A stretch of 64,000 bases of DNA from an uncultured Alphaproteobacteria bacterium (GTDB lineage Bacteria; Pseudomonadota; Alphaproteobacteria; Methylaequorales; Methylaequoraceae). A model generated the notes under the pieces. The model did no database searches and was not told the DNA's origin. It saw nothing but the letters and a program-made list of their open reading frames with translations. The stretch lies in assembly GCA_902536655.1 (NCBI GenBank), contig CACAYF010000004.1, forward strand, positions 1 through 64,000, read 5' to 3'. This document shows positions 1-5,810 of the stretch, in pieces; the stretch's first letter is position 1; each line of letters begins with the position of its first letter. A program made the translations under genes and the position numbers.

Positions 1-2961
1 TTTCTTGTTATACTTGGATTTATATCGTTAAAAGAACTCCCACTTAGACAATTCCCAGATATAGAAAGATCTGAAATAACTATAGACACTTTATACTCAG
101 GTGCAGCATCTGAAACCATAGAAACTAAAATAACTGAAATAATAGAAGGGCAGATTAGTGGTATTGATGGTATTGAATCAATTTCCTCCGTAAGTAGAGA
201 TGGGAGATCAAAAGTAACAATTGAATTTAAAATTGATAAGGACATTAATGAAGCAGCAAATGATGTAAGAGATGCGGTTGCAAGAATCTCAGACAACCTT
301 CCAAAAGATTCTAATCCCCCAGAGATTTCCAAAATAGATTCGGATGCAAATGCAATAATGTGGCTGAATTTGACATCTAACGATATAAATCAACTTGAAC
401 TAACTGACTATGCTGAAAGATTTTTAATTGACAGACTTTCAGTAGTTCCTGGCGTTGCGAAAGTAAGAATATCTGGTGGGAAAAAAAAATCTTTGAGAGT
501 TTGGGTCGATCCAGTAAAACTCTCGCAATATAGTATTTCAGTAAATGAAATAGAACAAAAAATACTAAGTGAAAATGTCGAAATTCCTGCAGGACGAATA
601 GAATCTAAATTTAGAGATTATACGGTCAAGCTAGAGAGTGGTTACAAAACTGCAAATGATTTCAGAAATTTAGTTATAAAAAAAGTTGATGATTTTTCAT
701 TCGTACGTCTAAGTGACGTTGCAAAAATTGAAATAGGTCCAGAAGAAACTAGACAAATTTTTAGAGGAAATGCCGAGGAAATGATTGGACTAGGTATTTT
801 AAAACAAAAATCTGCAAACTTGATAGATGTAACAGACAAGATTAAAGAAGAATTTAAAAAAATTCAAAGTGAACTTCCAACAAATATAAAAATTTACCAA
901 AGCTACGATACTTCTCTTTTTGTATCCGAGGCACTCCAGGAAGTAATATTTACTCTTTGTTTTGCAATGTTTTTGGTAACAATAATAATTTTAGTATTTC
1001 TTAAAAATATAAAAAGTACTTTGATTCCAGTTGTTACAGTTCCAATTTCAATTGTATCAACCTTTATTTTTCTTAACATTTTAGGTTTTTCTTTAAATTT
1101 AATAACACTATTGGCACTAGTTTTATGCACTGGGTTGGTAATAGATGATTCAATTGTAATGCTAGAAAATATCCACAAGAAAATTGAAGAAGGTGAATCT
1201 AAATTTCAAGCATCAATTAATGGTTCAAAGGAGGTATTATTTGCAATATTGTCAACATCTGTTGTTTTAATTAGTATTTTTATGCCAATTGTTTTTTTAG
1301 AGGGAGACACAGCAAAGTTATTTTTAGAATTGTCGATAACCATCATTTCTGCAGTTTTTTTTTCTACAATAATATCAATAACGCTAACACCAATGCTATG
1401 TTCAAAAATTTTGAATCATTCAAAACCAAAAAAACAATCTAAACCTTTTTTGGAGTTTTATTTAAAATTATTAAACTTTCTTCTTCAAAATAAATTTATT
1501 TATGTATTAATAATTATTCCGATGATCTTCTTTTCCTATCATCTCTATAAAAATATCTCCAAAGAATTTGCTCCCCAAGAAGATAGAGGGGTTTTTATAA
1601 TGGTTATGGAGTCCCCAGAAGGTAGTACTTTTGAAAACACTGTAAATCAAATGCTAAAGTTGGAAGAAAAATTGATCGATTTGAATGAAAACAAAGAAGC
1701 AAAAAGAATTTTATTAAGAGTACCTAGAAGTTTTTCGGGAACAGAAAACTTTAGTGATGGTTTAGGAATTATAGTACTAAATCACTGGGACGAACGCAGA
1801 AAAATTTGGGAAATAATAAAGGATTTCAGGATGGTTTCAAAAGATGTTACAGATTCAAATGTAATAATTTTTCCTCCAAGAGGCCTTGGACAGAGAAGAT
1901 CAGGTCAACAACTTCAATTTGTAATATCTGGAGATAACTATTCAGACATAAATAAGAATATGAGCATTATCTTAGATGAATTAAAAACAAATAAAAACTT
2001 TCTTTTTACTAGAATTGACTACAAAAAGAATAGACCTCAATTTAGAGTAAAAATTGATAGAAATAAGTCCTCTGATCTTAAAGTAACAAATAGTGAGATT
2101 GGTAGGACTCTTGAAATACTTCTTGCAGGAAGGAAAATCAATACTTTCATAGATAATGGGGAGGAATATTATGTTATAGTTCAATCAAAAAAAGAGAATA
2201 GAAAGAATATAAAAGACATAGGTGCATTTGAAGTAAAAAATTTAGACGGTAGATATATAAGGTTAGATAATTTATTGGAATTTAAGGAAGTAACTGAAGC
2301 AAAAGAGTTAAATAGATACAATAAAATGAGGTCAATCACCCTTAGCGCAGGACTCAAAAAAGGATACTCGCTAGGAGAAGCAATTGAATATCTTGAAAAA
2401 ATCTCAAAGGATAAACTTAAAGGAAATTACAAAATTGATTTTAAAGGGCAAAGTAAAGAATACAAAAAGTCTATGAATCAATTCTACTTTTTATTTTTAG
2501 TTTCAATTTTATTTGTTTATCTAGTTTTATGTGCACAGTTTGAGAGTTTTAAATTTCCACTAATAATCATGTTATCTGTTCCATTGACATTGATGGCACC
2601 ACTCGCAGCAATTATTTTTTTTGAAAATTCATTAAATATCTTTAGTCAAATTGGATTAATAATTCTAATCGGTATTTCTGCTAAAAACGGTATTTTAATA
2701 GTTGAATTTGCCAGGCAGATGAAAATAAAAGGGAAAAATTCCTACAACTCAATAATTGATGCATGCAAAATGAGATTTAGACCTATAATAATGACAGGCT
2801 TTTCAACTGTAATCGGTATAGCACCACTTCTTATTGGATCAGGAGCAGGATATGAATCTAGACTTACAATTGGGATTGTTCTAGTTACGGGTATAATTTT
2901 CTCAATAATTCTAACCTTACTTTTCACTCCATTTTTTTTTAAAGTTTTAGATAAAGATTAG
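1..2961 (+). CDS. RND family (HAE1/AcrB-like) efflux transporter, 5' truncated
   Basis: The inner-membrane pump subunit of a proton-driven tripartite efflux system. The reading frame is open from the first base of the window; 986 residues are visible and, by comparison with the usual length of about 1000-1050, only the first 20 or so (part of TM1) are missing. The visible N-terminus has the porter-domain stretch LRQFPDIE typical of AcrB/MexB relatives. The proton-relay residues are present: an Asp-Asp pair in TM4 (visible residues 382-383, GLVIDDS) and Lys in TM10 (visible residue 895, SAKNG). Hydrophobic blocks fall in the two six-helix bundles expected of the family. The substrate cannot be deduced. 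It converges with the fhcA-type gene with only 8 bases between the stops. The membrane-fusion partner, if adjacent, would lie to the left of the window. Confidence 0.95.
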   Translation, partial: FLVILGFISLKELPLRQFPDIERSEITIDTLYSGAASETIETKITEIIEGQISGIDGIESISSVSRDGRSKVTIEFKIDKDINEAANDVRDAVARISDNLPKDSNPPEISKIDSDANAIMWLNLTSNDINQLELTDYAERFLIDRLSVVPGVAKVRISGGKKKSLRVWVDPVKLSQYSISVNEIEQKILSENVEIPAGRIESKFRDYTVKLESGYKTANDFRNLVIKKVDDFSFVRLSDVAKIEIGPEETRQIFRGNAEEMIGLGILKQKSANLIDVTDKIKEEFKKIQSELPTNIKIYQSYDTSLFVSEALQEVIFTLCFAMFLVTIIILVFLKNIKSTLIPVVTVPISIVSTFIFLNILGFSLNLITLLALVLCTGLVIDDSIVMLENIHKKIEEGESKFQASINGSKEVLFAILSTSVVLISIFMPIVFLEGDTAKLFLELSITIISAVFFSTIISITLTPMLCSKILNHSKPKKQSKPFLEFYLKLLNFLLQNKFIYVLIIIPMIFFSYHLYKNISKEFAPQEDRGVFIMVMESPEGSTFENTVNQMLKLEEKLIDLNENKEAKRILLRVPRSFSGTENFSDGLGIIVLNHWDERRKIWEIIKDFRMVSKDVTDSNVIIFPPRGLGQRRSGQQLQFVISGDNYSDINKNMSIILDELKTNKNFLFTRIDYKKNRPQFRVKIDRNKSSDLKVTNSEIGRTLEILLAGRKINTFIDNGEEYYVIVQSKKENRKNIKDIGAFEVKNLDGRYIRLDNLLEFKEVTEAKELNRYNKMRSITLSAGLKKGYSLGEAIEYLEKISKDKLKGNYKIDFKGQSKEYKKSMNQFYFLFLVSILFVYLVLCAQFESFKFPLIIMLSVPLTLMAPLAAIIFFENSLNIFSQIGLIILIGISAKNGILIVEFARQMKIKGKNSYNSIIDACKMRFRPIIMTGFSTVIGIAPLLIGSGAGYESRLTIGIVLVTGIIFSIILTLLFTPFFFKVLDKD

Positions 2962-2969
2962 TGAAATAT

Positions 2970-4622
2970 TTAGGGTCTAATTTCTTCAAAGTTATTTTCA
3001 GTAAAAAAACTTTCATCAACTTCAAACTCGTCTAGGCTCAAAGAATAGTAGTTATTAAACCATGACTTTATTTTTTTATGAATTTTAGCATCGTATTTTA
3101 AATTTAAACATTTTGTGACTGTTTTCATATGTCTTAAAACCTTACCTTTTTTGACAATTTCATTACCATTTTTAAAAACATATTCAGCAGCTCTGAACAT
3201 GTCATCAATGGGTTTATTTGGATTATATATTGATATGTCAGCTACCGAACCAGGCTTTAAAGAACCTCTATCTTTTAAACCTAAAATTTTAGCTGGAGCA
3301 GCTCTTGTCATTATAACAATTTCATATAGATTATATGTTCTCTTTATAGATTTAATGTTTCCAATCTCTTTGGCATTAATATTAATATTATCTATTTCTG
3401 AGTTTCTAAAATCTGAGTCCATCAGAAGTCTTATCAATTCAGGGTAAGAAGTAAATGGTGCACCATTAGGATGGTCAGTTGTAAGAAAAACTCTCCAAGG
3501 ATCTTTTATCATTAAAAAGAGCTCTAGACCAATCGACCATTGGAGCGCATTTACAAAATTTTTTTGCTTATATTCATAGGGTATAACGCCCCCTCCCCCG
3601 TCTTCGATCTCAGAAATTACCCATTTTTTTGGATTTGCATTTGATTTGGCTTGATTTTGTTTCCAAATATCTGAGGAAATTGTAACTGTTGGTTTGAACA
3701 TTACTTGTCCAATATCAACAGAAATGTTTTGGTTTTTATTAATCTTTTCAGCTAATCTCAAAGCTCCAGACGAAAAACCTCTTTTTCCTTCATCTGCATA
3801 ACCATAAAACTGTATATGCGCTAGATGCATTCTCCTTCCTTGAGCTGCGTCAATTGTATCTATTATAGAATCCACATTTCCTGCCATTCCGAGATTATTA
3901 CAATGCACATGAATGGGATGAGGAATTCGTAAATTTTCGTTTGAAATATTTAGAGCTTCAAGAATTTTTCTAGAACTAACACCATATTGCGGTACTATAT
4001 CATCTAAACCAAAATTTTCAGATTCCCCTTTGTATTTAAATAATTCGGTTCCTCCAGCATTTATAACCTTAAGACCTATGCTTTTTGAAGAATTTACATT
4101 CCATGCAACGTAATCGTCAATATAGGATTGTCCTCGTTGTTGGTTTAAAGCATCAAGTAAAAAATTATCATTTCCAACTATAGCAAGACAACCTTTGTCA
4201 ATCATGGGTATTTTTTCCAATTCTAATTGCGTTAAAAAAGAGTTAATAGGTGTTACCGCAGGTTCTATAACAGTTGTAAAACCCATTTCTGCATATCTAT
4301 ACCCAGTACCTTCTGAAGTCCATCTAGAATTGAATCCAGGTAAATAACTTTTTCTTTTAAGATTATTTTCTAGAAAGTTGGCATGAATTTCTGGAGATAA
4401 AAGTCTTGCATTATTTACATTTCCACCTGCTATATGTGAATGTATGTCTATCCCCCCTGCCATAACAACCATTCCCTTGACATCATAGACAATATTATAT
4501 TTTGAAGACTCTGCAGTTGAAGGATTTGTAATAAATCCGTTTTCAACGTATATATCTTGAATTTTTCCATTTAATTTTTGTGTAGGATCGATAACTGTCC
4601 CATTTACGATTTTAAATTTCAT
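2970..4622 (-). CDS. fhcA: Formylmethanofuran dehydrogenase/formyltransferase-hydrolase subunit A (FwdA/FhcA family)
   Basis: A 550-residue amidohydrolase. In methylotrophic bacteria FhcA is the hydrolase subunit of the FhcABCD complex, which releases formate from formyl-methanofuran in the tetrahydromethanopterin C1 oxidation pathway. The metal-site pattern of the family is intact: HSH at residues 61-63 after the GGIDIHSH motif, a candidate carboxylated Lys185 (GLKVINAGG), His238/His240, His266/His269 and Asp383 (TTDHPNG). I chose the ATG at 4622, since the upstream extension to a TTG at 4685 is not family-like; no clear Shine-Dalgarno is visible. The gene stands alone: it is divergent from folE and convergent with the RND pump, and no fhcB, fhcC or fhcD is in the window. 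The family call is secure; whether it works in a complete Fhc complex cannot be judged here. Confidence 0.88.
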   Translation of the reverse strand: MKFKIVNGTVIDPTQKLNGKIQDIYVENGFITNPSTAESSKYNIVYDVKGMVVMAGGIDIHSHIAGGNVNNARLLSPEIHANFLENNLKRKSYLPGFNSRWTSEGTGYRYAEMGFTTVIEPAVTPINSFLTQLELEKIPMIDKGCLAIVGNDNFLLDALNQQRGQSYIDDYVAWNVNSSKSIGLKVINAGGTELFKYKGESENFGLDDIVPQYGVSSRKILEALNISNENLRIPHPIHVHCNNLGMAGNVDSIIDTIDAAQGRRMHLAHIQFYGYADEGKRGFSSGALRLAEKINKNQNISVDIGQVMFKPTVTISSDIWKQNQAKSNANPKKWVISEIEDGGGGVIPYEYKQKNFVNALQWSIGLELFLMIKDPWRVFLTTDHPNGAPFTSYPELIRLLMDSDFRNSEIDNININAKEIGNIKSIKRTYNLYEIVIMTRAAPAKILGLKDRGSLKPGSVADISIYNPNKPIDDMFRAAEYVFKNGNEIVKKGKVLRHMKTVTKCLNLKYDAKIHKKIKSWFNNYYSLSLDEFEVDESFFTENNFEEIRP

Positions 4623-4728
4623 TTTGCAAATTTTATATTTAAGTAGTATTAAATATATTACTTTAAATTTTTTTTTTAAACACAAGATAATTTAATGTCT
4701 ATATATTAATTTTGAAAAGAAAGTAATC

Positions 4729-5340
4729 ATGGATTCAAGTTCTCCAAAAAATGTTAAAATCGCGTTACAAAACAAAGTAACTAGGAAAGAAGCTGAAAAA
4801 GCAGTAGAAACTCTTATTAAGTGGGCCGGAGACGATCCCGAAAGAGAAGGATTGCGTGAAACCCCAAAAAGAGTAATTAATGCATTTGAAGAATTCTTTT
4901 CTGGATACAACGAATCTGCTGAGAAATATCTTTCCAAGACTTTTGAGGACGTTCAAGGTTACCAAGACATGGTCATGCTCAAAGATATCCCTTTTAACTC
5001 ACATTGTGAACATCATATGGTTCCAATCATTGGTATTGCCCATATCGCCTACATACCAATTAAAAAGGTAGTCGGTATTTCTAAATTAGCAAGAACAGTT
5101 GAAATTTTTGCCAGAAGACTTCAAACACAAGAAACAATGACACAGCAAATAGCTACATCGATTTACAATGCCATGAAACCAAAAGGTGTTGCAGTTTTCA
5201 TTAAAGCGATTCATCAATGTATGACAACAAGAGGTGTCGAGAAACCAAATGTATCGACAATTACAAATACTTATCTGGGTGATTTTAAAACAAACAATGA
5301 TCTTCAAAGGCAATTTTTAAATTATATTTCAAGTTCATGA
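4729..5340 (+). CDS. folE: GTP cyclohydrolase I
   Basis: Converts GTP to 7,8-dihydroneopterin triphosphate, the first step of folate (and other pterin) synthesis, in the cytoplasm. At 203 residues it has the usual length. The zinc/active-site signature is present: HCEHHMVP (about residues 88-95), the VVGISKLAR segment and CMTTRGVEKP near the C-terminus, which holds the second zinc Cys. It is divergent from the fhcA-type gene over a 106-base intergenic region and overlaps hisI by 4 bases (ATGA), so the two are probably translationally coupled. The pairing with fhcA is suggestive because both concern pterin-dependent C1 chemistry, but that is inference. Confidence 0.96.
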   Translation: MDSSSPKNVKIALQNKVTRKEAEKAVETLIKWAGDDPEREGLRETPKRVINAFEEFFSGYNESAEKYLSKTFEDVQGYQDMVMLKDIPFNSHCEHHMVPIIGIAHIAYIPIKKVVGISKLARTVEIFARRLQTQETMTQQIATSIYNAMKPKGVAVFIKAIHQCMTTRGVEKPNVSTITNTYLGDFKTNNDLQRQFLNYISSS

Positions 5341-5810
5341 TAAAAGATTTTTCTACAAGAAAATCCGTAGAAGAGGTTGAAGAAGGTGAAACTTTGCAAC
5401 CAAAGTTTGACCACAATAATTTAATTCCTGTAATTACAGTAGACCAGTCAAATAGCGAGATTTTAATGCACGGGTATATGAATCAAGAGGCTTTCAGATT
5501 ATCAATGCAAACAAAAGAAGCTCATTATTGGTCTCGCAGTCGAAAATGTATTTGGAAAAAAGGAGAGACTAGCGGATTAATTCAAAAAATTAAAGAAATC
5601 AAAATAGATGATGATCAAGATTGTGTGATTTTTAAAGTTGTACTTGGTGGTTTAAAAGCTAGTTGTCATGTCGGTTATAAATCATGTTTTTATAGAAAAA
5701 TTACCATGGAGGAAGGTCATTACATAGATAAACTTGAGTTTACTGAAAAAGAAAAAGTCTTCGATCCACAAGAGATTTATGGCAATGCTCCAAACCCGAC
5801 CAAACTTTAA
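5337..5810 (+). CDS. hisI: Phosphoribosyl-AMP cyclohydrolase
   Basis: Opens the adenine ring of phosphoribosyl-AMP, the third step of histidine biosynthesis. The 157-residue protein has the HisI core: VDQSNSEILMHGYMNQEA, the SRSRKCIWKKGETSG motif and the metal-binding DDDQDCVIFKV and CHVGYKSCFYR segments. It is a stand-alone HisI with no HisE pyrophosphohydrolase fusion, as is usual in alphaproteobacteria. It carries about 25 extra N-terminal residues (acidic, no predicted domain). The start is fixed by the ATGA overlap with folE. No other his genes are in the window. Confidence 0.95.
   Translation: MIKDFSTRKSVEEVEEGETLQPKFDHNNLIPVITVDQSNSEILMHGYMNQEAFRLSMQTKEAHYWSRSRKCIWKKGETSGLIQKIKEIKIDDDQDCVIFKVVLGGLKASCHVGYKSCFYRKITMEEGHYIDKLEFTEKEKVFDPQEIYGNAPNPTKL

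Follow-up and report, generated by a model that had tools for sequence, protein, structure and literature searches.

The fhcA Gene of the Methylaequorales Lies Opposite folE, Apart from fhcB, fhcD, and fhcC

The window analyzed here (the whole stretch of 64,000 nucleotides, from an uncultured alphaproteobacterium) carries an fhcA gene with none of its usual partners beside it. We find that the separation of fhcA from the fhc cluster is a property of an entire order, TMED127 or Methylaequorales, and not a quirk of one genome. The window gene very probably supplies the only FhcA subunit to an FhcABCD complex of the ordinary kind, for which fhcB, fhcD, and fhcC lie together elsewhere in the genome. 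This unusual but conserved encoding probably arose after a subunit exchange. The function of the window FhcA is thus ordinary; what is new is the history of the gene and a link between zinc and a gammaproteobacterial FhcA copy, FhcA2. The organisms concerned have recently been proposed as the main methanol oxidizers of oligotrophic surface water.

The Window fhcA Gene and Its Product

The product of the window gene matches NCBIfam model TIGR03121 with a score of 614.5 bits (cut-off 392.75) over model positions 2–554 of 556, and its score against the FwdA exception model (408 bits against 950) is far below the threshold. Translation is taken to begin at the ATG at 4622, where the family has its conserved start (MKFK...); the mechanically derived open reading frame extends further, to a TTG at 4685. 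Six residues (H61, H63, K185, H240, H269, and D383) are invariant across 65 aligned FhcA and FwdA sequences, and from what is generally known of the amidohydrolase superfamily, we take them to be metal ligands. A preliminary description of this DNA, made from its letters alone, had reported an intact gene of the FwdA/FhcA family with all metal-site residues, flanked by a convergent RND pump gene and a divergent folE-hisI pair. The family score, the alignment, and the coordinates of the open reading frames (Table 1) agree with it on each of these points.

When the tree is given an archaeal outgroup, the window protein falls within bacterial FhcA, inside a group that we call type B (100/98). Among solved chains, FhcA of Methylorubrum extorquens (6s6y) comes closest to it, and FhcA chains of 6s6y are also the top fold matches of a predicted model of the window protein (TM 0.87–0.88, about 40% identity; pLDDT 80 and pTM 0.86, with several active-site loops weak). 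The two proteins are alike in family, length, fold, metal-site residues, and the type B residues CNYG at positions 241/242/273/344, but the remaining pathway proteins of the window family are not of the M. extorquens type. The metal-site residues are also the same as those of the homologous archaeal subunit FwdA/FmdA, subunit A of the W/Mo formylmethanofuran dehydrogenase. Archaeal FwdA works in CO2 reduction together with the W/Mo-bearing FwdB.

The end of the RND pump gene is 8 bp from fhcA. On the other side, the region between fhcA and folE contains a near-perfect inverted repeat, AAGTAGTATTAAATATATTACTT, which is conserved in close relatives and degenerate in others. We considered this palindrome as a classical Zur box and rejected it, because it does not match one; its arms may be just overlapping promoter elements.

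Table 1. Positions of the features discussed, in the window unless contig C17 is named
Feature	Positions	Strand	Remarks
RND efflux pump permease gene	358..2961	(+)	5' end lost at contig edge; convergent with fhcA
fhcA	2970..4622	(-)	intact; 550 residues + stop; ATG at 4622; predicted formyl-methylofuran hydrolase, the catalytic A subunit of the Fhc complex
D383 codon	3474..3476	(-)	putative catalytic aspartate; 65-sequence alignment
H269 codon	3816..3818	(-)	putative metal ligand; 65-sequence alignment
H240 codon	3903..3905	(-)	putative metal ligand; adjoins C241/N242, marks of FhcA type B; alignment
K185 codon	4068..4070	(-)	putative carboxylated bridging lysine; 65-sequence alignment
H63 codon	4434..4436	(-)	putative metal ligand; 65-sequence alignment
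H61 codon	4440..4442	(-)	putative metal ligand (HxH motif); invariant in 65 sequences
fhcA-folE intergenic region	4623..4728		106 bp; presumably with both divergent promoters
Inverted repeat AAGTAGTATTAAATATATTACTT	4641..4663		near-perfect; at the same place in close relatives
folE	4729..5340	(+)	zinc-type GTP cyclohydrolase I; motifs CEHH (residue 93) and QCM (residue 163, second Cys motif)
hisI	5337..5810	(+)	phosphoribosyl-AMP cyclohydrolase (zinc enzyme); 4-bp overlap with folE
fhcB, contig C17	252-1352		gene order fhcB-fhcD-fhcC
fhcD, contig C17	1349-2233		
fhcC, contig C17	2233-3039		

Partner Genes and the C1 Pathway

The window is contig C4 of a 1.42 Mb assembly (32 contigs, 93% complete), in which exactly one FhcA scores above the family cut-off. 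Contig C17 holds the only fhcB and fhcD matches of this genome, with fhcC adjacent to them; the window contains none of the three genes, as the preliminary description had said. FhcD and FhcC exceed the cut-offs of their NCBIfam families. FhcB of the window family matches TIGR03129 in its C-terminal part only, at 72 bits (cut-off 328); because FhcB is so diverged, we infer the formation of an Fhc complex from the co-occurrence of the genes.

We did not find mch, mtdB, or the main fae gene in the window assembly, which is 93% complete. They are missing because contig C17 starts within the gene for pterin-4a-carbinolamine dehydratase. In relatives, the cluster continues with genes for PCD, RFAP synthase, MtdB, an ATP-grasp protein, Mch, a second ATP-grasp protein, a CitG-like protein, and Fae, and the segment that neighbors the cluster in a relative is without a counterpart in the window assembly. 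We rejected a biological absence of mch in favor of an assembly gap, since relatives carry mch next to the cluster. A search for fhcBCD, mch, mtdB, fae, and the cofactor genes, which the preliminary description had proposed, thus located fhcB, fhcD, and fhcC in the genome itself and the others in relatives. Also encoded in the window genome is a PQQ methanol dehydrogenase whose motif, DEWDYDG, we take to be the Asp-X-Asp pattern of the lanthanide enzyme XoxF. A second Fae-like gene (L056:9999-10547; 134 bits to TIGR03126) lies away from the C1 island of the window genome, directly upstream of an apparent phosphate-uptake gene cluster.

These genes suggest the following scheme. XoxF would yield formaldehyde, and with tetrahydromethanopterin as carrier, Fae and MtdB/Mch would take this to the formyl level. 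FhcD would transfer the formyl group onto methylofuran, and the binuclear metal center of FhcA, with FhcB and FhcC as its partners, would hydrolyze formyl-methylofuran to formate. Both the assembly of the window FhcA into the complex and its hydrolysis of formyl-methylofuran are predictions from sequence.

The lack of linkage between fhcA and fhcB, fhcC, and fhcD could instead reflect a stand-alone amidohydrolase with a new substrate and no relation to the Fhc complex, and the preliminary description had offered this as an alternative. We consider it highly improbable. The window protein is the only FhcA of its genome, in which fhcB, fhcD, fhcC, and a gene for XoxF are present, as are fae, mtdB, mch, and genes of cofactor synthesis in relatives; the protein keeps every putative ligand residue; the best fold match of its predicted model is the FhcA of an Fhc complex; and within the family it is conserved at the rate of FhcD (see below). 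The preliminary description had also named two observations that would make the gene a generic amidohydrolase, a complete fhcABCD cluster with its own fhcA elsewhere in the genome and a position of this copy outside the FhcA clade, and we found neither.

Separation of fhcA from the fhc Cluster throughout the Order

In all 20 family genomes examined (20/20), fhcA is absent from the fhc cluster, where its slot would be between fhcB and fhcD. These two genes are adjacent, with no fhcA between them, in all 18 family loci that were measured; their spacing is −23 to +13 bp in 16 of these loci, and in the other two, the fhcB frames are broken or shortened. Conversely, fhcA lies opposite folE in each of the 20 genomes, the window genome included, whose contig reaches that side (20/20). 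These genomes represent 10 genera, and the family as sampled here comprises 12. In genus g2, the RND-pump side of the locus is replaced, and fhcA, folE, hisI, and the ALDH gene are still together.

Given an assembly in 32 contigs that is 93% complete, one might suspect an artifact of assembly or binning, such that the window is a contig of a foreign organism. This is hardly credible, because the genes around fhcA are ordered alike in 20 genomes from 10 genera, among which are named records from single cells and metagenomes. Operon break-up with the complex encoded elsewhere, the other reading in the preliminary description, is correct, because fhcB-fhcD-fhcC lies on contig C17 of a genome with one FhcA and the split extends across the order, and a new role for the protein is unsupported.

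Where the fhc cluster of other Alphaproteobacteria is intact, it includes fhcA, upstream of fhcD, and fhcA is likewise clustered upstream of fhcD in the operons of gammaproteobacterial methylotrophs that we examined (gene order in GC-rich loci was read from HMM searches of stop-to-stop frames). An exception outside the family is a short contig (L226) on which fhcD-fhcC is repeated and no fhcA is present. Clustering of fhcA with fhcB, fhcD, and fhcC is usual, but it is not a functional requirement.

The records MED715 and MED657 carry the same fhcA locus as the window, and both are listed as members of TMED127 “Clade X,” for which the name Methylaequorales has been proposed (PMC12542740). TMED127 comprises marine methylotrophs of 12 genera, with genomes of about 1.5 Mb, XoxF5, and the H4MPT pathway, and in them a hopanoid cluster adjoins the C1 island (PMC12542740). 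The “methylotrophy island” described in that study comes from the same organisms and has the same order of hopanoid and H4MPT/C1 genes as the window family; the fhcBDC locus is part of this island, whereas fhcA lies outside it. The fhc genes are not mentioned in the main text of PMC12542740. As the Fhc complement is complete despite an island that lacks fhcA, TMED127 should not be scored as being without this step.

The mean pairwise identity within the family is 68% for FhcA, 70% for FhcD, 37% for FhcB, and 40% for FhcC. Judged by these values, the presumed catalytic subunits, FhcA and FhcD, are constrained, and FhcB and FhcC drift. Fae is 95% identical within the order, while FhcB (e.g., L055:252-1352) and FhcC drift fast.

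Several variations in gene arrangement were seen in passing. In genus g9 (G020 and G027), fhcB is also parted from fhcD-fhcC, such that the genes of the complex are spread over three loci (L067:8159-11588, L202:9936-, L200:9646-, and L201:8840-), and in G020, fhcD overlaps the end of an unrelated open reading frame of 577 aa by 4 bp. A gene for a TIGR04559 quinoprotein-relay zinc metallohydrolase lies between hisI and the ALDH gene in some genera (L075:11488-12420, L081, L082, and L091); the window genus does not have it there. In Sedimenticola and other Gammaproteobacteria, an fhcB-fhcA pair occurs without adjoining fhcD or fhcC (L150, L151, L156, L160, L171, L179, and L183).

FhcA Types and Conflict with the Rest of the Pathway

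When the tree of bacterial FhcA is rooted on archaeal FwdA, two types can be distinguished. Type A includes the operonic FhcA of gammaproteobacterial methylotrophs and of most of the Alphaproteobacteria sampled; in window numbering, its marks are a Cys at either 241 or 242, a Cys at 344, and, in most cases, a His at 273. The window family belongs to type B (100/98), together with M. extorquens and its kin, the gammaproteobacterial operon L157, a gammaproteobacterial group with fhcBA, and gammaproteobacterial stand-alone copies. The type B rows that we inspected have CNYG in columns 241/242/273/344, and because the operonic proteins of M. extorquens (6s6y) and L157 have these same residues, we rejected the idea that type B is the mark of a zinc-linked paralog. 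Columns 242, 273, and 344 are near the active-site ligands and hold Cys/His/Cys in type A versus Asn/Tyr/Gly in type B; C242/H273/C344 of type A may possibly form an additional metal site.

We compared this tree with one from a concatenation of seven proteins (FhcD, Mch, MtdB, the products of two cofactor genes, Fae, and FhcC). The concatenation places the window family with the type A Alphaproteobacteria, as opposed to the Gammaproteobacteria and the M. extorquens-type Alphaproteobacteria (100/98). In AU tests, for which the groups were partly picked after the trees had been seen and in which composition was skewed in many rows, the concatenation rejects both L157 (p 9e-7) and the M. extorquens type (p 2e-6) as partners of the family, as well as the FhcA split itself (AU p 2e-4), and FhcA rejects a grouping of the family with the type A Alphaproteobacteria that are closest to it in the remaining pathway (AU p 8e-7). 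The FhcA tree was rebuilt with and without long alphaproteobacterial branches, and hidden paralogy in the Gammaproteobacteria adds to the conflict between the two trees. From this conflict, we conclude that FhcA was exchanged relative to the remaining pathway somewhere in its history. As an exchange of FhcA need not involve FhcB, FhcC, or FhcD, FhcA trees are no proxy for the history of the pathway.

On the present sampling, the exchange may have taken place in the window family itself. We think it reasonably likely that the operon fhcA of the family was lost and that a type B FhcA beside folE became the only copy. A plain relocation, in which an ancestral type B fhcA moved from an fhcBADC operon to the folE locus without a subunit exchange in this lineage, would be consistent with the existence of operonic type B FhcA (M. 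extorquens 6s6y and L157) and with the clean closure of the former slot between fhcB and fhcD. It is at odds, however, with the affinity of the remaining pathway proteins to those of Alphaproteobacteria that have a type A operonic FhcA, with their rejection of M. extorquens-type Alphaproteobacteria or L157 as partners of the family, and with the rejection by FhcA of a grouping with the type A Alphaproteobacteria. We therefore regard a mere relocation as possible but somewhat doubtful, and we favor loss of the operon copy and its replacement by the type B gene beside folE.

Gammaproteobacterial FhcA2 and Zinc Starvation

Outside the family, the closest relatives of the window FhcA are the stand-alone gammaproteobacterial copies, or FhcA2. 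The FhcA trees give no clear preference for FhcA2 over the rest of type B as the sister of the family. Two FhcA copies are present in 15 of the 16 gammaproteobacterial genomes searched, one scoring 770–814 bits and a stand-alone one scoring 630–666 bits. The higher-scoring copy is operonic in the cases checked, and in one genome (G416) it is interrupted and spans two frames. In Sedimenticola (G424), a single FhcA copy is present, and it is linked to fhcB.

The loci of 48 stand-alone copies contain genes for DUF1826 (39 loci), a COG0523 GTPase (39), ZigA (28), a ZIP transporter (23), FolE2 (14), and HisI (4), counts that are lower bounds because many of the loci are partial. The cluster of Methylomonas sp. 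LW13 runs ZigA, ZIP, DUF1826, FhcA2, FolE2, COG0523, COG0523. A Zur box, GTTATANTATAAC (at most one mismatch, within 150 bp), was found in 17 of the 29 clusters with a readable region upstream of ZigA; among 150-bp stretches drawn at random from these loci, the rate was 0.6%.

Nine families of Zur-linked zinc-enzyme paralogs have been described, including HisI and PyrC, and FolE2 is named as well (Haas 2009, PMC2770081). FhcA is not one of the nine (Haas 2009, PMC2770081), but the gammaproteobacterial FhcA2 is placed in the same way as the Zur-regulated paralogs that lie beside COG0523 (HisI, PyrC, and FolE2; PMC2770081). In the limited collection of literature that we searched, we found no paper that deals with FhcA and zinc starvation or Zur jointly, and the zinc-starvation FhcA2 of Gammaproteobacteria has apparently been undescribed until now. 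It would link zinc supply to C1 oxidation.

One specific form of subunit exchange would derive the window FhcA from this gammaproteobacterial FhcA2, which would have been transferred to the vicinity of folE and hisI and would later have replaced the operon copy. The genomic settings are reminiscent of each other, in that the ZigA/ZIP/DUF1826/COG0523 clusters that hold FhcA2 also include FolE2 or HisI genes as well as Zur boxes, and the window fhcA too adjoins FolE and HisI genes. A tree constrained to unite FhcA2 with the family also slightly beats the free tree (lnL +0.7 and +1.9), but not significantly so (AU p about 0.5; support 80/55), and column 349 is the only signature column that the family and FhcA2 alone have in common. 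Moreover, the window FolE is of the zinc type, and in contrast to the Zur-regulated paralogs (PMC2770081), no Zur box and no link to COG0523 were found for the window fhcA. The best match to a Zur box in the 106 bp between fhcA and folE has five mismatches, whichever strand is read; the window genome contains no convincing COG0523 gene, with weak cobW matches only; and the neighbors of the window fhcA are folE, hisI, the ALDH gene, and the RND pump gene, with no ZigA/COG0523, ZIP, or DUF1826 gene among them. We consider descent from FhcA2 unlikely. The broader proposal that the swapped-in FhcA of these methanol oxidizers, abundant in the open ocean, is a former zinc-starvation back-up paralog (FhcA2), whose retention near the zinc enzymes FolE and HisI is adaptive in surface water poor in zinc, is speculative, and we would not expect it to hold.

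All six putative ligands are retained in FhcA2. Clusters of this kind are found at L193:7027-14688 and in L144, L147, L153, L158, L164, L166, L173, L181, L191, and L198.
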